From Xylogone sp. PMI_703 (taxonomy: Eukaryota; Ascomycota; Leotiomycetes), in NCBI GenBank assembly GCA_021399445.1, contig JAJTUQ010000005.1, positions 1,736,001-1,800,000 of the forward strand: a stretch of DNA of 64,000 nt. Reading direction: 5' to 3'. The notes under the pieces were generated by a model. That model searched no databases. It saw only the letters and a program-made list of their open reading frames with translations, and had not been told where the DNA came from. This document shows positions 3,465 through 56,260 of the stretch, one piece after another (the first letter of the stretch is position 1; each line of letters starts with the position of its first letter). A program made the position numbers and the translations under genes.

Positions 3465-4412
3465 TTATTTCTTCCTTGCCAGCAAAATGGCAGTTCCCCA
3501 TTCTGTCTCAACCTCTATATCCGGCCAGTTCTCTCCAGCCTTTTTCCATTCTGGCTCGACTTCAAGCATCTTGTCGAACATGACATCGACGACGTCGCCT
3601 TCCCCCCCGTTAGCCCGACTTGTTCGATCTGGGTTATCTAGCTGCCATGCATGGAAGGAGCTAAATGTCCTTGTGTACTCCTGAAGTTCTCCCAGCTTGA
3701 CCTTCTTGAACATCAGCCTTTCGCCTAGGCTCCCTGAGTTCGGTCCTTTCACATCAGGCTCATACTCCAATCTTCGGACATCCCCAAACAGGCATTCGGG
3801 AGGAACAATTGCTCTATAGCGATCTCTCAGAATACCTCTACCGGGCATCTCCCAGTATGGACCTAGAGTGTCTTTGGTTGCACCATAGCAGAAATGGTCG
3901 TATATTTTCGTTGCCTGTGGGTAATCGACAAGGAGATTATCTTTATATCCAAAAAATGCCACGGTACCTCCCTTGCGGAGCTTGCGAGAGATCGCGGGCC
4001 AAACTTTGGAGAAATCAAACCAATGAGCTGCTTGGCCAGCTACGACCATATCTAGCTCTCCATCGGAAATAAAATCTAGGTTTTCAGCTGGGCCACTTCG
4101 AAATGTGACATTTACTTCTTTGGTCATCGATTGTGTCTGATCGACCATTACATTGGAAGGATCTATGCCAATTACTTGACCAAACGAAGGAGCCAAGGCT
4201 CGAGATACCACACCATGTCCACAGCCCAGGTCAATAACCGCATTTCGCGGGCCTTGGTGATAGGAGAGGATAGTGCGGTAGAGGTTCTGAGGATACGTCG
4301 GGCGGAAAGCGGCATATCCTGATGCTGAAAAGGTGGACTTACTGCATGCTATTTCTTAGAGAAAGATGCATAGCCGGTTTCTTAGACTGCACACTTACGC
4401 AAATGTGGCCAT
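3465..4412 (-). CDS. SAM-dependent class I methyltransferase (trans-aconitate methyltransferase-like)
   Basis: The predicted protein has 296 residues from two exons: a 14-nt first exon (4399-4412) and 3465-4341, joined across a 57-bp intron. The start fits the family opening, with F-S-A-S-G-Y-A-A-F-R-P-T-Y-P just after the splice. The SAM-binding motif I is VIDLGCGHGVVSRALA, followed by an acidic residue at the end of strand 2 (GIDPS) and a DMVVAGQAAHWFDF segment. The C-terminal half, with EYTRTFSSFHAW, matches fungal trans-aconitate 3-methyltransferase-like proteins, which methylate small carboxylates. Many such proteins also sit in secondary-metabolite clusters, so a tailoring role for the nearby cluster is possible but not shown. 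No targeting signal or membrane segment is visible, so it is probably cytosolic. Confidence 0.85.
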
Positions 4413-4907: not shown

Positions 4908-5514
4908 ATGGCGACAGAAGTAGCAGCTAGAACATTTTTCTCATCACCATACTTTGCTGTGGTAGGCGCTTCATCAGACCCTGCCAAATTCGGACATAAG
5001 AGTGAGCATTCTTGCCCCTCGGTTGCCCCGCAACTGACAACAGACCGGTCTTTCCCTAGACCTCACACCAAGATCTTCTCATCATTTATAGAATTATATA
5101 CTGATATTCTTATTGTGTAAACTAGTATTCACATGGTACACTCACCATAACCTTCCCGTGACTCCCATCAATCCAAGCAGTCCTGAGATCACAGCCCTCC
5201 CACCTGCGGGACATGATCTCGTAAGCTATTCCACCCTTCCTAATATATCCGCCCTTCCGAATCCTAAGGATACCGGTGTGAGTATCATTACACCTCCGAA
5301 GGTCACAATGAAGGTTTTGCAGGAAGCAAAACAGATTGGCGTTCAGAGTGTCTGGTTGCAGCCGGGAACGTTTGATGATGAGGTCCTGTCGTTCGCCTTG
5401 AAGGAGTTCAAGGGTGCGGTTGGTGGTGATGGTGGTGCAGGCTATGAGGGGTGGTGTGTACTTGTTGATGGGGAGAAGGCATTGAAGGATGCTGGTCGCG
5501 AGTGGAAGCTGTGA
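4908..5514 (+). CDS. CoA-binding domain (Rossmann) protein
   Basis: Two exons (4908-5001 and 5126-5514) give 160 residues. The first exon carries the nucleotide-binding start of the family, FAVVGASSDPAKFGHK, and the second begins with the matching strand and turn, WYTHHNLPVTPINP. Later segments VSIITPP and VWLQPGTFDDEV correspond to the second and third strands of the YccU-like CoA-binding fold. The length agrees with stand-alone members of this family. These small proteins are widespread in fungi; they bind CoA or a related nucleotide and have no well-established pathway role. There is no signal peptide. The gene is divergent from the methyltransferase and is probably not part of the RiPP cluster. 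Confidence 0.88.
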
Positions 5515-6234: not shown

Positions 6235-7482
6235 CTATTTAAGATCATCCATCCCCTCCTCAGGCTTTTCTAACATTGTCTCTATTCCTTCTTCTTCATA
6301 TATCTCCTGTTGCAGATTTCCTCTTTCTCTGCGTTGTAGAGCTGCAACTGAAAATGAGCTCATAAGGATCATTGCTCCTCCACCAAGTGTTAGCCAACTG
6401 GGGCTTATTTTCCACACTACTTTGTCTATGATCATACTGAATACTATCTGTATGTACACTATGTTTAGTGCCCTGCTATTTTTCTCACATTGCAAACTAG
6501 CAGCCAGCAGCAGTTGCAGCCCAAAGCCAAATACGCCCATAAATAACAAGAGGCCCCACTCTGACTTGGTAGGCATCCGAAAAGCATCTGGGCTGACAAT
6601 TGCTGTGCCAAAGCTTGTTAACACTATTGTCCATAATGCAAAATGATACACTGCTACGGCAGGGTGCGCACGTTTGTCAAGCCGAGTCATCACGATATAT
6701 GCTATTGCTCCTCCTACTACACCTACAAGTGCAGCTCCTATGCCAGAAGCACGCTCTAGACTTCCACCGGAGTCCAAGGTAGAGGCACCAAGTTTGATGA
6801 ATACATGCGCTGTAGAATTTGCCACGCCGCAAAAGTTGCCGTTAATGGCTTTCTGCAGGCCAGGTGTGGAGAGATTGTCAGAGGAATGCCATGGCTGAGC
6901 AACCAGGACAACGCCGATAATTGATGCCACACTGGCAACTCGTTGCACGTTAGATAATGGAATTCCGAAGAGAACAGAAGATGCAAAAGCAGCTACCATT
7001 GGGGCAAGAAAGTTTATCACTATTGCCTCGGAGAGAATAAGATATCGGAGAGAATAGTAAAAGCCCCAGACTAGATCTTGATCAGCAAATATTCGCCGCA
7101 TTCGTATGGCCAGAGAGGTGTACTGCCAAAAACACCCGCAATACTACGAATGGTCAAGAGTGGCCATAAATCTCTCGGACCAAGGGGATAGCTTTCCACC
7201 TTTGCCCACATCATGAAGATCCAACTTAGAAGAAATGTTATACCCATCATCGTAATGAGAATCTACAATGCATCAGTTATTGAGTTTAATCTTTGATTAC
7301 TACCTATTGCTGAAGAATTCAATTACCTGGCTCGTATCTGGCGGCTCGTGTTCTTTGCTAGTTGCCTGAAGTAACTTAGAGGTAACAGCCATCAGCGAGG
7401 ATATCAACTGGGCCAAAACCATCAACACAATGCTTTTGCTACTTCTCCATAACTCGGTCCATCTACTTTCAGCAGGCATCAT
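6235..7482 (-). CDS. EamA / drug-metabolite transporter family permease
   Basis: Three exons (7327-7482, 7124-7262, 6235-7070) join cleanly to give 376 residues. The protein has about ten hydrophobic segments in two halves, as expected for two EamA domains. The first half includes SIVLMVLAQLISSLMAVTSK and, across a splice, RSIAGVFGIWGFYYSLRYL followed by LSEAIVINFLAP. The second half includes AVYHFALWTIVLTSFGTAIV and a last segment SFSVAALQRRERG. A charged, Glu-rich tail ends the chain. EamA proteins export or exchange small metabolites across membranes. The gene is about 1.4 kb downstream of the UstYa gene on the same strand, so it could be the cluster exporter, but that rests on position only. 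The start could be either Met of a Met-Met pair. Confidence 0.85.
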
Positions 7483-8913: not shown

Positions 8914-9915
8914 CTAGCATCCAGTAGGTCCACATATCCCCTGCTCATCTCTCCATCCAGTGAAATTAAACTCTCCCGCGTAAGCATGCTCGAGTGCCCA
9001 TTTATGTATCTATTCGTTAATCAGTACCAGTAAGCTAGTCAACAATGGGGGGAATTTCACATACCGCATCAAAATTCCTGCAGGTGTGCATAACATTGAA
9101 GCTGCTTATAACTACGTTTCTGTCAGGATGATATTGAAACACCTGTGGTGTGACGTCTAAAAAGCACTGTAGAGACTGGCGAATGGAATTGAAACAGTGG
9201 TGTGCATGTCCTACGCTATAGAGTCCTTCCTCAAAGTTCTCAGGCCAGGGCTCGGTATAGGGGTTGTAAGTAGAATTCCATTTGGAGTCTCTCATATAGC
9301 CTAGCGAGAGTCGAATAGCGTCCTTGTCGGGTTTTAGTATCGAACACTTTCAAGAGGAGAGAGTAGTAATAATATACATACAAGGCAGTGCAGATCATGA
9401 AATACAGTTAAGACAATTGGATAGTCTTCATCAGTGCCTGGTTGTGCGGCAGCAGTCTTATTATGGAGTCGAGATGCTTCGTATTTGGAGAGACGTGTAT
9501 CACCAACGTAGTGTAAAGCCCTCCATCTCTCATTGCGTTCGGGGGTGGGAGGTCCAGCATAATCGTCGTCGATTTTAGGGATTGGGTTGTCAAAATTTTG
9601 GTTGCGATACTCTATTGCTTCTTGCGCGGGCGCTATTTTGGATCAGCGTTGTTCGATTCATCATTTAAACCGCTACTTACTGTACATTTGCTGGAATACG
9701 TCAGTCCTTGTATGTAGGCGCCAGGACTGTGCCAAGCCAAGGACGAGAAGCAAGATGTTGAAAATGATGGAAGTTGCCAAAGCAAACTTCAGGAATCGTT
9801 TTGGCTTTTCCGGAAAAGTTGTATAGTCATGTTCATCTTCTAAGAGGGATTCATTCGTCTCGGATTCAGAATCCACTTGACGATACTTCTGCCACTTGGA
9901 AAAAGAAGGCTTCAT
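8914..9915 (-). CDS. UstYa-family oxidase (DUF3328), RiPP maturation
   Basis: Four exons (9681-9915, 9382-9620, 9065-9322, 8914-9009) sum exactly to 276 codons. A basic, acidic-patched cytosolic N-terminus leads into one membrane helix (FALATSIIFNILLLVLGLA, about residues 44-62). The lumenal part carries the family hallmark HxxHC motifs: FHDLHCL at the end of exon 2 and GHAHHCF in exon 3, followed by SLQC and then MHTCRNFDAIHKWALEH near the C-terminus. UstYa-family proteins cross-link side chains of the core peptides of dikaritin RiPPs (ustiloxin, phomopsin, asperipin-2a) in the secretory pathway. The gene is divergent from the repeat precursor at 11161, which is the expected partner. All splice sites and motifs are intact. 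The exact cross-link formed cannot be deduced. Confidence 0.92.
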
Positions 9916-11160
9916 TTTGAATAGAGTGAATAATGTTGTGAGTTATCGAACATCCAGAGCAAGCCTGAGTTTACTCTACTTTCGCAAAGAGGGAACCACA
10001 AGAGAACTATGAATTTCCGAGTCTGATGCCTTATCAGTGTCCTCTGGCGTCTTGACACGGTCTTCCAAGTTCGGTCCCTTAAGCTGGAATGCTCCCCCTG
10101 CTTCGTCTTGACATCAAGAGCCTTTATGAAGGGATATCTCCAGCTCATGCCATTGTGAGGTACAATAGATAGGAATTGACCAATCAAAAAATTCAGACGG
10201 TTACGTACGTAGAACTATCTTTCTTGGCGCTCTCTTCACCGTTATTTCAGATCCTAGATATCATGCATTTCGGGTAAGCTAACAATATAATTAACGCACC
10301 GTGCCGGGAACCTGCATATGCAGTAGAGTGGCGCATACTGGGCGGCTGTGGCGTACGTTGGCTTGTGATATCGTTTGTTGCTGTGGTATGCCTGATCGGG
10401 AAATCTTGAATTGTGGCTATTCATGCTATTGTAACCGTCCCCGCGTCTGTAACATTGCAAGCATAAGATGCAGAATCCTATCTTTTGTGTCTGTGCCGCA
10501 ATATTGATGAAAAGGACTGTTGGTCACAGATAAGCCGAGATCTTTGACATAATATTGAGGCTAGTAATTAGCTTGTTGCTACCATTAAGTGAGTAGAAGT
10601 TGAAGCGGCAAGAACAATGAGACATTGTTATTGACTGAAACAGAAGGTAGGAAAGGGAATATCTCCTCAGAGATAAGAGTAAGCAGTAATGTAACTCTTC
10701 CAAGTAATATCCTGAGGAGATCTCTTGTACGGCGGATTCAGGTGCAGAAGGAACAGCAGACGGCATAGCAATTGACGTCAAAAGCACAAGGCTCGTATGT
10801 TACTGGAGGAGTATCTTTCGTCCTGACGGAATCACAGCATCATGTTCGGGGAATATGTCGGGCAAATCACTTCTATGTCGTTTTGAGGGCTTGTGACAAA
10901 GTGGGAAAACTCTGCGAAGTAAAGAGAAGCTCTCTGTAGTAACCCATTTTGCTTGGTAAGAGCCAGAGATTGGAATGAAGAAGAAAAAGTATAAGAAGGT
11001 ACCGCTTTCCTCACAATATTGACCATTACACCATAAAGAACTCTCAAGTTACTCGACATCCTCACATCAAAAACATTCACGGCCCCAACTCCTCAGTCAG
11101 TATAGCATATGAACTTCGAGATTGAGAAGCAACGGCTAACATTATTCAAGCGCAATCATC
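9916..11160. promoter_or_regulatory. Divergent region between UstYa gene and RiPP precursor
   Basis: This 1.2-kb stretch separates the two divergent RiPP genes and must hold both promoters. I find no second UstYa-like gene here. Small frames such as 9912-10187 (minus) show no family features. Confidence 0.5.
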
Positions 11161-11946
11161 ATGAAGACTATCTCCTCCGTTGCTGTTTTGGCATCTCTTG
11201 CCTATGAGGCCTTTTCTTTGCCCATTGAGCCCGTTGGAACTGCCAATGGTGTTACCAAGCATGTCTTCAGAGGCGAGGAGGGTGAGAACCCTGCTCCACT
11301 TCTCTATGGGTATGGAAAACGCGAGGATGGAGAGACACCTGCTCCTCTCCTCTATGGCTACGGAAAGCGCGAGGAGAATGTAGATGGAGAGAACCCAGTG
11401 CCTCTTCTATACGGCTACGGCAAGCGCGAAGAGGGTGAGAAGCCAGCTCCTCTTCTTTATGGTTATGGCAAACGTGAAGATGGAGAGACTCCTGCGCCAC
11501 TTCTTTATGGTTATGGAAAGCGTGAGGAAGAGGGAGAAAACCCTGCTCCACTCCTTTACGGCTACGGAAAGCGCGAGGAGGAAGAGACTCCGGTCCCTCT
11601 GTTGTATGGCTATGGCAAGCGTGAGGACAGTGCAGAGGACGAGAATCCAGTTCCCCTGCTTTATGGCTATGGAAAACGTGAAGGAAGTTCGGATGGAGAA
11701 ACGCCGGCTCCACTTCTCTATGGTTATGGAAAACGTGAGGAGGGTGAGAAGCCAGCCCCTCTTCTTTATGGCTACGGTAAACGTGAAGAGGGAGAGACTC
11801 CAGCTCCGCTTCTTTACGGTTATGGTAAGCGTGAGGAAGGTGCTGAAGGAGAGAACCCTGAACCTCTCCTCTATGGGTACGGCAAGCGTGAGGATGGCAA
11901 GGCCCCAGAACCTCTCCTTTACGGCTATGGCAAACGTGAGGAATAA
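11161..11946 (+). CDS. Dikaritin-type RiPP precursor with 13 Kex2-bounded LLYGYG cores
   Basis: A single exon encodes 261 residues. It opens with a signal peptide (about residues 1-19, MKTISSVAVLASLAYEAFS) and a short leader, so the product enters the secretory pathway. From residue 41 to the end there are 13 repeats of the form acidic linker - x-P-(A/V/E)-P - LLYGYG - KR. Every copy ends in Lys-Arg, the Kex2 protease site, and the LLYGYG hexapeptide is identical in all 13. Only the linker changes: the residue between the prolines is Ala in 8, Val in 3 and Glu in 2. This architecture matches UstA-type precursors. The nearby UstYa oxidase supports cyclisation through the tyrosines. It is unlike a mating pheromone, because it has no Trp or Cys core. 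The N-terminal edge of the mature core is unknown; the Pro residues may belong to it. I do not recognise this core sequence among dikaritins that I know. Confidence 0.9.
   Translation: MKTISSVAVLASLAYEAFSLPIEPVGTANGVTKHVFRGEEGENPAPLLYGYGKREDGETPAPLLYGYGKREENVDGENPVPLLYGYGKREEGEKPAPLLYGYGKREDGETPAPLLYGYGKREEEGENPAPLLYGYGKREEEETPVPLLYGYGKREDSAEDENPVPLLYGYGKREGSSDGETPAPLLYGYGKREEGEKPAPLLYGYGKREEGETPAPLLYGYGKREEGAEGENPEPLLYGYGKREDGKAPEPLLYGYGKREE
11281..11943 (+). repeat. Tandem coding repeat array (13 units)
   Basis: Thirteen imperfect in-frame units of roughly 42-57 bp encode the LLYGYG-KR repeats. Third codon positions vary freely between units (Tyr as TAT or TAC, Gly as GGT, GGC or GGA, Arg as CGC or CGT), while the core amino acids never change. 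The same repeats make long antisense and frame-shifted open frames here, which are not genes. Confidence 0.92.
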
Positions 11947-12596: not shown

Positions 12597-13611
12597 TCAA
12601 GTACTTGCACCAGGGCACCACTCAATAAGTTTTCCTTCCTTCCAGAATCCTCCTGTAAAATCTCCAATATCACCTAAAGCAAGAAAGACAGGCGTCTGTG
12701 CACCCTCATCCACAGTCGAAATCCCATGTCCCTTTGTCATATCCGTGTTGACAAAGCCTGGGCAACAGGCATTTATTAACACTGTGGTTCCATTATTTTT
12801 ATTTTCCTTTGCTATGGCTTTAGTAAATGCAATCTCGCCTGCTTTGCTTACAGCGTAAGCGTACGAGGCACCTGGCCATCCTTCTTGCTTTTCTCTCTCT
12901 GCTAGCGAATCGGCTGTAAACTTCTCCATCAAGGATACGCATGCTTCTATAGACGTCTTTGAAGCTTCGATAAAGGATTGCTTTAGGGACTCTGAGTATA
13001 GTGTCAACTGGCCATCTGAAGAAGCCACGTTGACCAGCCTTCCTCCTGGGCGCATCAATGGAAGAATGGCCGTCGTTGTCATAGAAGTCCCATAGTAATT
13101 TGTCCTAAGTACAGTTTTAACAATATCGATATCTATTATCTCTTGTCAATACCTTATCTTTCATGAATCTTGGTGGGTGCTCTTTAACAACTTACCGAGA
13201 CTTTCCGCAAAAATACCTGCATTATTGATCAAGATATCAATTCCACCTGGATGCTCCTTCCTTATCAGGCCCTTAAAACTCTGAATACTACTTTCCTCGC
13301 TGATATCCAAAGCGTTGAAGGTAATTGTGGTTAAACCTCCGTCTTGCGAAAGAGCTTTCACAGCTTTAAGTTGTGGGTCAGAGACGAGTGTCTTAACAGC
13401 TTCCTTGCCACGGGCTAGAGAGCGAGCAGTTAAATAGATGAGAAGCGGTCCTGAATTGAAGGATGAATCGGGATACTGAAGTGCCAGGTTTCGTACTGTT
13501 GAAGGTGTTAGAATTCCGATAACTACGACGGATGGGCGGTTATCTACCAATCGCCAGGCCAATCCCTTTGTTAGCACCTGTTACTACAGCGATTCTTGAA
13601 TAAATGGTCAT
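12597..13611 (-). CDS. Short-chain dehydrogenase/reductase (carbonyl reductase-like)
   Basis: Three exons (13548-13611, 13196-13495, 12597-13132) give 299 residues, with every splice in phase. The NAD(P)-binding glycine motif is VTGANKGIGLAI at the N-terminus. NNAG appears as ILINNAGIFAES, followed by the conserved TNYYGT. The catalytic set is Ser in NVASSDG, then YAYAVSKAG giving the YxxxK pair, and the PGFVNTDMT stretch follows. This matches carbonyl reductase (CBR1-type) enzymes, which use NADPH to reduce ketones or aldehydes. It lies between the RiPP precursor and the P450, so it could tailor either product, or neither. No membrane segment is seen. Confidence 0.88.
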
Positions 13612-53050: not shown

Positions 53051-56000
53051 ATGATTGTTCGGTCTTTATTATGGGCGGCGGCGGTGGGATGTGTAGCTGT
53101 GGTGCAAGCCCAGAACTCGACGGTGCTAGCTGGGAGCTTGATTTCGCCAAATAATCGAGGAGGTGGAGGCGGGCAGAACTGCGACTATTGTCCCCCACAC
53201 ACTGTGACTGAGTATTGCACTGTGACAGAAACCATCACCAAGGAGTAAGTTTTCCAAGACATTGATCAATCACCAAATGATGAAATTGTTCATTTAAAAT
53301 TAGAGCTCCAGACTTAGCTAACACTTGAATTTTTCTTTCCAGTCATTACAGTACGAAAACCAGTACTAAAACCGTCACTGACTAGTGAGTCTTACCTATC
53401 TAAGAACACCCTTAAACCCGTGTTGCTTTGAAACAAAACGAAACAAAACAAAAGCTTACTTGAAACTTTCTTGTAGTAAAACAACTCATATCACAGTCAC
53501 TGATAAAGTGACTCGGACCACCACAGTTACTAAGCCAACCACAATCACTAAACCAACTACCGTCACGGACGTTAAAACCACCACGAGTGAAGTTGATGTC
53601 TATATCACCGTTTACGAAACCGTGACCCAGAATTATACGACTACAACGACCACGACTGACAGCTTTACCACGACCACTACATGTACAGATTACATAACGC
53701 AAAATGTTACCGTGACAGATACGATTGCCACACCATCTGAAGTAGATGTGACTATCACAGCAACGGAAGTTGATACGGTCACAATTGCTACACCATCAGA
53801 AGTGGATGTGACTATTACGGCGACGGAAGTTGATACGGTTACAATTGCAACTCCTTCCGAGGTCGATGTGACTGTAACAGCAACTTATGATTTCAATCAG
53901 ACCGTTACAGATACGGTGACAGCTACTTATGACTTCAACCAAACCATTACGGACACTGTGACTGCAACAATTGCTACGCCCTCAGAAGTTGATGTGACTG
54001 TTACAGCCACGGAAATCGATACAGTCACCATAGCCACTCCATCAGAAGTGGATTTTACCGTCACAGCTACTGAAATTGACACAGTCACAATAGCTACGCC
54101 CTCTGAAGTTGATTTCACTGTTACTGCCACGGAAATTGACACAGTCACGATAGCTACTCCATCAGAGGTTGATTTTACTTTTACGGAAACGGACGTAGTA
54201 ACTAGTTATATTGCTACACCTTCAGAAGTCGACGTAACTGTTACAGCCACAGAAACCGATGTTGTTACCAGTGTTATTGCAACACCTTCAGAAGTTGATG
54301 TTACTGTGACGGCTACGGAAACCGATGTGGTTACGAGCATTATTGCAACACCATCAGAAGTTGATGTTACTATTACAGCTACAGAAACGGATGTTGTTAC
54401 TAGCGTCATAGCTACTCCTTCCGAGGTTGACGTAACTGTCACTGATGTCGTTACCAGTGTAATTGTATCGTCAACAGAAATCGATGTCACAATTACCGAT
54501 ATCATTACGAGTATCATAGTCACACCATCAACAATCGATGTTACTATTACTGATACTGAAACGGTGGTTACTCCATCAACCGTTGATGTCACGATCACGG
54601 AAATTTCAACAGCTACTATTGTTACTCAATCAGAAGTTGATATTACAATTACGGAAACGATAGCTACACCGTCCGATGTTACGATTACTGAAATTATTGC
54701 CACTCCATCTGAGGTGGACGTTACCGTGACGGCCACTGTGGTCACTGTTTCTGAAGTTGATATTACTACCACGACAACTCTCACACGTGAGTAAATAGCA
54801 GATCTTTTTGATAGGTTAGAGTTGCTAATTCCGCTTTAGTTCCGGCATCTACGGTCACGACTACAATTTCAGGGACTCCAACAACGATAACGCTCCCGCC
54901 AACCACTATTACGCAGGTTACAACCATAACTGCTCCAGGATCTGTCACCACACTCCCAGGAACAACCGTCACCGTCGATATTGTCAGAGCCTGCCCTCAA
55001 CCAACTAACACCGCCCCAGTTACTCCACAATCCACCGGTAAAGATGCTACCTGGGGTTGTTCTCCAGGATTCGTTTGCAGTCCTCCCAAGCCTGGTAACT
55101 GCGATGTTGCTATGAATCCGCCGGCAGAAGATTATCTCTGTGATGCTCGGTTCTGTATTCGGGCTCCTGACTTCACACCAGTAATCTGGCCGACTAACAG
55201 CACATCCTTCTATCCGCCAACGGATGGCTACTTCAACTTGAACCCGAATGCCTTCGGTCTTAGCTCAGGTATATTTACCGAAGAAACCTTTGTGAAAGAG
55301 GTTCCTGGTAAAGGAGAGGTCACCATCACAACCGGTAACTGGGCGACTCAGACTAGTTTGACTCACTTTGATCCCAAGTCCGCAGCGACTGCCGTTGCTG
55401 CAAGAGCTCTGCAAGTTGAAGCTCGTCGGATCTCTAAGAGAGATAATACTATCGTCCCAGCTGTCTGCTTCAACGTTTGCAACAACGGTTTTGTCGAAGC
55501 CCAAAGAGTAGGCAAGTCTCCAGCTCTCTGTGCTCCTGGCTCAGCCTTCCTCTCCGACGTTGCGGCTTGTCAAGCCTGTGTTGCAGCCCATGGAGATACG
55601 ACGAAAGTGACCCTGCAGAATTATGTCAATCCGCAGTTTGCACAGTTCATCAACTTCTGTAACGCTCAGAACCCGCAGAGTGAGATTCAGGGATCGACAC
55701 CCGCGTCCTCTGTGACCACCGTCACGAGTACGGCGCCAGCCAGTACTCCCGTTGTTACATCCACCGAAATTATTACTCCTCAACCGGTCACCTCTACCAA
55801 CGTGATAGTTGTTTCCTCAACAGCGGAGTCCACACCTGTTACCACAGTGGACGTCACAAGCACAGAAGTCCCAAGCAGCGCTCCAGCCTCATCTGAGCCG
55901 GCATCATCTGCTCCACCGTCCTCCGCGCCTCCATCTTCCGCTCCTCCATCCTCGGCACCGCCAAGCTCTACTCCAAGCACGCCCTCAGCAAGCCCTAGCA

Positions 56001-56260
56001 CGCCTACTCCGGCATCAAGCGCACCGACTACAACACCTAGCAGTTTCTCAACTGCAACCACCCTAGTTGGAGGTGTAGGAAGCACGGCTAGTCCAAGCAC
56101 ATCATCGACGCCTACCCCTATATCTACACCCTCGAGCAACGAGACTAGCTCGGCACCGACGGCGTCATTCACCCCTAGCGCAGCAGAGAATCTCCGACCA
56201 GCGTCATCATTGATAGCCACGTTGGTCTCACTGCTGCTAGCGTTCCACATCTTCATGTAA
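53051..56260 (+). CDS. GPI-anchored, Thr-rich repeat cell-wall protein (adhesin-like)
   Basis: Four exons (53051-53244, 53343-53384, 53477-54786, 54840-56260) sum to 989 codons. A signal peptide (MIVRSLLWAAAVGCVAVVQA) is followed by a short Cys-containing stretch. A Thr-rich region then has many TVT and TIT tripeptides and 12 exact IATPSEVD units plus variants. Past the third intron comes a folded-looking domain (about residues 540-740) with several Cys residues (WGCSPGFVCSPPKPGNCD, YLCDARFCI, CFNVCNNGF, CQACVAAHG). A Ser/Pro-rich stalk (repeated SSAPPS) leads to the C-terminal hydrophobic tail SSLIATLVSLLLAFHIFM, typical of a GPI signal. The protein should be heavily O-mannosylated and fixed to the wall. 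An adhesin or structural role is inferred from architecture alone. Confidence 0.88.
53723..54720 (+). repeat. Coding repeats of the IATPSEVD unit
   Basis: In-frame degenerate repeats of about 48-57 bp encode IATPSEVD followed by VT(V/I)TATE-type spacers. I count 12 exact IATPSEVD copies, with degenerate ones such as IVTPSTID towards the end. Such arrays can change length by slippage or recombination. Confidence 0.88.

Follow-up and report, generated by a model that had tools for sequence, protein, structure and literature searches.

A Kex2-type repeat precursor with thirteen LLYGYG cores beside a UstYa-family gene

Introduction

The locus examined here, part of a 64,000-nucleotide stretch of the Xylogone sp. 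PMI_703 genome (the window), raises the question of whether a short gene consisting largely of tandem repeats encodes the precursor of a UstYa-modified ribosomal peptide and, if it does, to which kind of peptide it gives rise. Kex2 handles precursors of this sort, and the cyclisation of asperipin-2a, phomopsin and ustiloxin requires UstYa proteins (PMC7329392). Across 1,461 surveyed strains, 7,878 Kex2-type precursors (KEPs) were catalogued in 838 types, with a further 2,560 having no homologues, and 22% of the surveyed precursors adjoin DUF3328 genes (PMC7329392). The DUF3328 protein CctR is a binuclear copper, O2-dependent oxidase whose activity depends on the copper-binding HxxHC motif (PMC12435403).

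A preliminary description of the window had read the gene as a dikaritin-type precursor with an unfamiliar core. From the evidence set out below, the gene is probably a Kex2-processed repeat precursor for a UstYa-type ribosomal peptide, of an asperipin-like rather than a strictly dikaritin kind.

Results and discussion

Structure of the precursor

The reading frame was recovered exactly as first described; it runs from ATG to TAA without an intron and encodes 261 residues (Table 1). The N-terminus is hydrophobic (best 11-residue hydropathy mean 2.14 (KD11), starting at residue 4) and is kept in P0002, the sole homologue found; a cleavage site after S19 was judged by eye. The array was detected independently by Tandem Repeats Finder. 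KR directly follows the core in all 13 LLYGYG copies, and the protein contains no other dibasic site (13 KR, 0 RR, 0 KK). No KR precedes the first core, which comes after ...KHVFRGEEGENPAP. Thus, the 13 repeats previously described as Kex2-bounded do each end in KR, but only 12 of them lie between two KR sites. The core is invariant, as had been stated (13/13), although the fixed block is longer than the core and reads P-x-P-LLYGYG-KR-E in every unit. Tyr3 and Tyr5 are present in 13/13 cores. Between a KR and the core that follows lie spacers, 12 in all, of 8 (n=7), 11 (n=4) or 9 (n=1) residues; they start with EE, ED or EG, and five have an odd length (9 or 11). A KEP is defined by at least three repeats split by dibasic Kex2 sites; here there are 13 repeats and 13 KR sites. 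A secretion signal, a feature of KEPs in general (PMC7329392), may be provided by the hydrophobic N-terminus.

Table 1. Features of the window, and repeat-bearing frames elsewhere in the genome.
Feature	Position	Strand	Basis or remark
Class I methyltransferase	3465..4412	-	PF08241 (Methyltransf_11), E 1.4e-16
CoA-binding protein gene	5092-5514		CoA_binding_2
EamA-type transporter (3' part modelled)	6235..7101	-	PF00892, E 5.7e-16
UstYa-family (DUF3328) gene, 279 aa, four exons	8914..9915	-	gene model, PF11807
UstYa exons	9915-9681, 9632-9382, 9322-9065, 9009-8914	-	gene model
Divergent intergenic region between UstYa and precursor start codons, 1,245 bp	9916..11160	.	coordinates
Kex2-type repeat precursor, 261 aa	11161..11946	+	ORF, translation, 13 LLYGYGKR units
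Signal-peptide-like N-terminus, MKTISSVAVLASLAYEAFS	11161..11217	+	hydropathy; match to MKTFSSLAILACLAYQASS of P0002
Short propeptide preceding first core, KR-free	11218..11298	+	translation
Array of 13 LLYGYG cores, each then KR; acidic spacers ending PxP	11299..11937	+	translation, repeat count
Short-chain dehydrogenase/reductase (SDR), adjoins precursor	12597..13611	-	adh_short on two pieces; start ATG by eye, checked
Cytochrome P450	14531..16404	-	PF00067, E 7.2e-48 on C-terminal exons; 5' exons by eye, start ATG checked
Terpene synthase-like gene	18804 to about 20030	+	PF19086, 1.2e-17 on first part; 3' end by eye
Part of fungal transcription factor	from 25382		
L002, TDNVASYQWKK units	L002:236-631	-	about 1 kb from UstYa match; no start visible
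L015, NNPKFDYPG units	L015:3129-3482	+	about 1 kb from UstYa match; runs off locus
L032, DEPLTAAYNTVYKR units (LTAAYNTVYKR)	L032:1423-1941 (G000:C21, about 2.673 Mb)	-	complete frame, signal-like start
L035, QSPDLGYYVYFKR units	L035:186-800 (G000:C20, about 6.673 Mb)		stretch with several UstYa matches; complete frame, signal-like start

When the protein after residue 19 was shuffled, an 8-mer occurred twice in 0 of 2,000 residue shuffles, compared with the 13 copies observed. The degenerate DNA pattern for LLYGYGKR (YTNYTNTAYGGNTAYGGNAARCG) had 13 matches in the 50,134,506-base genome, all of them in the precursor gene, and its reversed control had none in the same genome. By pattern and protein searches, the LLYGYG precursor is unique in the genome.

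The copies of core plus KR differ from one another at a mean of 4.7 of 24 nt per pair. Within the core the differences are confined to third positions or to the first position of Leu codons, and all are synonymous. The core has a pS of 0.76 and a pN of 0.011 with no amino-acid change, the small pN arising from the way in which paths between Leu codons are counted. For the six residues that precede the core, pS is 0.67 and pN 0.16, and the spacers do change amino acids. The probability that at least 11 core codon changes would all be silent by chance is about 4e-7 under a simple model, or 2.5e-6 with transitions weighted threefold; both values are rough, as the changes are taken as independent. 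Because the copies vary only synonymously, while the spacers vary in amino acids, the LLYGYG core is held by selection.

The synonymous divergence also indicates that the copies are neither recent duplicates nor duplicated reads. Two points could be raised in favour of an artefact or a structural repeat protein: tandem repeats are prone to misassembly, and the other weak profile match to the precursor is a Mytilus protein (E 0.35). An assembly artefact was rejected on the divergence between copies, and a structural repeat protein on the presence of KR after every core, a layout that recurs in a separate sequence from another source (P0002). That the array is anything of this kind, rather than a peptide precursor, is extremely improbable.

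The neighbouring UstYa-family gene

The proposal that the repeat precursor stands beside a UstYa gene was supported. The start codons of the two genes are 1,245 bp apart, and the protein encoded by the neighbour matches PF11807 with an E value of 3.7e-42 (145.1 bits, cut-off 25). The region between them is possibly a shared promoter. In the UstYa gene model, the acceptor of intron 2 (9381-9323) seems to be AAG, which is rare; without it HCL would not connect to DAIRL in the manner of the homologues, and the resulting model aligns without gaps to P0005 at that junction.

The gene looks intact, and the UstYa protein has one strong hydrophobic segment by hydropathy, from residue 44, and two HxxHC motifs (HDLHC at 157 and HAHHC at 201). 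Among 845 candidates, 21 relatives were found at E <= 0.001, the best being from Monilinia laxa (75% identity, 100% coverage) and the next from Nemania, Hypoxylon and Xylaria. An alignment of the window protein with 11 of the 21 relatives showed the first HxxHC to be invariant in 12/12 sequences; in the second, H204 and C205 were invariant (12/12) and H201 was present in 11/12. A search of solved structures returned no UstYa relative, its three matches (E 0.47-0.53) being taken as chance. In the AlphaFold model of the Monilinia laxa homologue, which is poor (mean pLDDT 48.8), the first HxxHC begins one residue before a helix at 160-175, the second lies inside a helix at 201-216, and a long helix spans 44-71.

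The DUF3328 copper enzymes, CctR among them, likewise have one transmembrane segment (predicted here by hydropathy) and the HxxHC...HxxHC arrangement (PMC12435403). The substrate that CctR hydroxylates is a non-ribosomal peptide, whereas that of the window UstYa would be ribosomal. The features sought in an ust-RiPS are a nearby DUF3328 gene, HxxHC and Tyr in the core, the last being usual rather than universal; the locus has the gene, the motif twice and the Tyr. For comparison, Tyr occurs in 65.6% of the repeat sequences of precursors beside DUF3328 genes and in 38.2% otherwise (PMC7329392).

A relative of the precursor and the apparent novelty of the LLYGYG core

A search of a 5.8-billion-protein database with the precursor, in which the 8,000 candidates sharing most words with the query were scored, returned one relative, P0002, a protein of 223 residues on a JGI contig of 998 bp; the match has an E value of 3.3e-33 and 53% identity across 67% of the query. 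The leader of P0002, MKTFSSLAILACLAYQASSLP, and its unit, ETPSPLYYFYGKREE, match those of the window precursor, and the two proteins share the frame ETPxPL...YGKREE. The cores of P0002 are LYYFYG and one LLYGLV; relative to LLYGYG, the LYYFYG cores keep L1, Y3, Y5 and G6 and are changed at positions 2 and 4. A further search with the two-sequence alignment (7,999 candidates scored) added only the Mytilus protein mentioned above and nothing at a convincing E value, and among viral contigs none of the 50 pattern matches was a relative.

The N-terminal extension of P0002 is probably 5' untranslated sequence with the start mis-set, and if the extension is untranslated, P0002 would be a true orthologue. 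The basis for this is that the untranslated stretch before the window precursor gene (10991-11134) weakly resembles part of the first 56 listed residues of P0002 (43%, E 0.097), which suggests conserved 5' untranslated sequence; in the window the resembling frame contains a stop and differs from the precursor frame.

The protein and literature searches gave one relative, with the core LYYFYG, and no precedent for LLYGYG itself: neither LLYGYG nor LYGYGKR occurred in the open-access main texts searched; many cores are listed in supplementary tables. The repeat was not matched in the text of PMC7329392 that was consulted. The core can thus still be called unfamiliar, but this is unsurprising given 7,878 precursors in 838 types (PMC7329392). 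A new core is to be expected because such precursors have been catalogued in their thousands with diverse cores, and because at least four more repeat frames with different cores lie near UstYa matches in this genome (see below). As such precursors are common and their cores highly diverse, the locus alone leaves the understanding of the class unchanged. Its value is as a tidy system of one core and one UstYa gene, with two conserved Tyr two residues apart.

Class of the locus

Phomopsin-type clusters, the dikaritins in the sense of Ding et al. 2016, are listed with a tyrosinase (PhomQ/UstQ-type) and an S41 peptidase (PMC6514808). Tyrosinase (PF00264) had 13 matches in the genome and none in the window, the nearest on the contig being 68.6 kb from the precursor; S41 peptidase (PF03572) had five in the genome and none in the window, with two on the contig at 3.2-3.3 Mb. 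The core, LLYGYG, is not of the YxI type. A SAM methyltransferase (PhomM/UstM) is a further component of such clusters; the window has a Methyltransf_11 gene at 3465-4412 as a candidate counterpart, with other genes between it and UstYa. The assignment to the dikaritins therefore fails in its strict sense, and a phomopsin-type dikaritin was rejected on these grounds. With ustiloxin and phomopsin the locus shares a probable signal peptide, the KR-flanked repeated core and a UstYa gene near the precursor; those systems carry two or five UstYa genes (PMC7329392), whereas one was found here.

The predicted architecture is that of a Kex2-repeat precursor with UstYa, as in ustiloxin- and asperipin-type peptides, and since neither a tyrosinase nor an S41 peptidase was matched in the window, the locus resembles the one-UstYa asperipin-2a system more than a strict phomopsin-type dikaritin. 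The nearest described system found was that of asperipin-2a (aprA, aprY, aprT and aprR of Aspergillus flavus), which is made from FYYTGY; its cluster of four genes is listed with a single UstYa homologue and without a tyrosinase (PMC6514808). The two systems share a repeat precursor whose six-residue core contains Tyr, a single UstYa homologue, and a nearby reductase and transporter (PMC6514808). They differ in that the core here is LLYGYG rather than FYYTGY, in 13 identical copies, and in that the reductase is a classical SDR and the transporter of the EamA type, both of them candidate members of the cluster.

Predicted maturation and product

The proposed route from precursor to product would begin with Kex2 cutting after KR in the Golgi, followed by removal of KR by a Kex1-type carboxypeptidase. 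The acidic spacer would then be trimmed up to the fixed PxP to leave LLYGYG, possibly still carrying some spacer residues to begin with. UstYa, expected from the example of CctR to be a membrane-bound binuclear-copper oxidase, would then cross-link the core oxidatively, and tailoring or export may involve the neighbouring SDR, P450 or transporter. Searches for a Kex2-type P-domain and for a DPPIV-type protein each gave one match elsewhere in the genome.

The most likely product is thus a UstYa-cross-linked LLYGYG hexapeptide, its cyclisation being predicted from the gene content and the core. Tyr3 and/or Tyr5 are likely to take part in the bond, since their spacing of two equals that of the Tyr and Ile joined in ustiloxin and since the LYYFYG relative retains both. 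These Tyr had earlier been singled out as cross-linking positions; their conservation fits that suggestion, while the cross-link itself is something that we infer. The uniformity of the core allows one product mass to be predicted; the [M+H]+ values for LLYGYG are 685.356 (linear), 683.340 (one cross-link) and 681.324 (two), and the linear spacer-extended form APLLYGYG would give 853.445. One precursor, 13 identical cores and one UstYa gene would make a clean test case for the action of a DUF3328 copper enzyme on a Tyr-x-Tyr hexapeptide.

It is also conceivable that the precursor yields a linear, unmodified secreted peptide (a signal, an alpha-pheromone-like or a surface-active peptide) and that UstYa is an unrelated neighbour. 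Alpha-pheromone precursors share the predicted layout, namely a signal peptide, Kex2 sites and, ahead of the core, X-Pro dipeptides of the Ste13-signature type (PMC6339444), and PxP is fixed before 13/13 cores here. Some Pleosporales pheromones carry PYGxPxG (PMC6339444), a type compared with LLYGYG by eye. A search of the rest of the genome for a repeated Cys-type pheromone array came out empty: a strict alpha-pheromone pattern had no match genome-wide, and a looser one had 14 scattered single matches, against five in the reversed control, and no array, a result that would fit either the presence or the absence of a pheromone gene. However, pheromone-annotated precursors almost never stand beside DUF3328 genes, with three exceptions (PMC7329392), and here UstYa is the adjacent gene. 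W, C and PGQ are all absent from LLYGYG. Simple stepwise removal of dipeptides by Ste13, starting at the Kex2 cut, is disfavoured because the spacers start with EE, ED or EG rather than X-Pro or X-Ala and 5/12 are odd, so that trimming by dipeptides alone would miss the core. Finally, P0002 keeps Tyr3 and Tyr5 while other core positions vary. Taken together, these observations make a linear product unlikely.

A UstYa-type peptide need not contain a UstYa-made ring, since UstYa enzymes also hydroxylate and halogenate; DUF3328 proteins have been implicated in hydroxylation, halogenation and isomerisation besides macrocyclisation (PMC12435403). UstYa might therefore hydroxylate or otherwise oxidise the core without closing a ring, or the ring might be closed by the neighbouring P450, the gene for which ends 2.6 kb downstream of the precursor. 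Against this, the three UstYa-linked Kex2-repeat cases (ustiloxin, phomopsin and asperipin-2a) all carry ether rings at Tyr (PMC7329392), and the P450 gene also adjoins the terpene synthase-like gene, a possible alternative partner. The chance that the product is of this sort is slim, and a hexapeptide cross-linked by UstYa is the preferred reading.

That reading can be taken further, though only as speculation. One UstYa, with no tyrosinase, might bridge one residue of a small hydrophobic peptide by joining Tyr3 with either Tyr5 or Leu1, giving a ring unlike those of ustiloxin, phomopsin or asperipin, and Y-x-Y cores (LLYGYG, LYYFYG and LGYYVYF) might form an unrecognised class of products sharing that ring. 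We regard this combined proposal as doubtful, if worth stating.

UstYa matches and repeat frames elsewhere in the genome

UstYa (PF11807) has 108 match places in the 50-Mb genome, several of them clustered locally, which merge into about 83 gene-like places in 54 groups; the merged number is rough, as exons match separately. Some adjacency of UstYa genes and precursors is expected by chance, because there are about 83 UstYa-like places, and by a hand estimate the 1.25 kb on each side of 83 UstYa genes covers about 0.4% of 50 Mb.

At least four further frames with repeats are located no more than 2 kb from a UstYa match (Table 1). Two of these, L002 and L015, came from a scan of 30 UstYa-centred loci, out of the 108 match places, with 1.5-kb flanks. 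No repeat frame was found in the other 28 of the 30, so most UstYa genes here appear to be without a precursor within 1.5 kb. The remaining two, L032 and L035, were picked up by protein matches that fall short of homology (E 0.12 and 0.026, respectively); L032 is about 1.6 kb from a UstYa match (L009). The L035 core, LGYYVYF, also has the Tyr-x-Tyr spacing.

Other genes of the window

The SDR is a possible tailoring enzyme and the EamA transporter a possible exporter, and both are candidate members of the cluster. The P450 may be a partner of the peptide genes or of the adjacent terpene synthase, and the SDR too may serve either the peptide or a terpenoid cluster. The terpene synthase-like gene and the adjoining P450 are perhaps a separate terpenoid cluster next to the peptide genes. 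On the other side, the methyltransferase, likewise a candidate member, is separated from UstYa by the CoA-binding gene and the transporter. Further along the window, at 53382-56260, two long Thr/Ser-rich open frames with tandem IATPSEVDVTVTATE-type repeats, for which Pfam gave no match, are cell-wall-protein-like by appearance.
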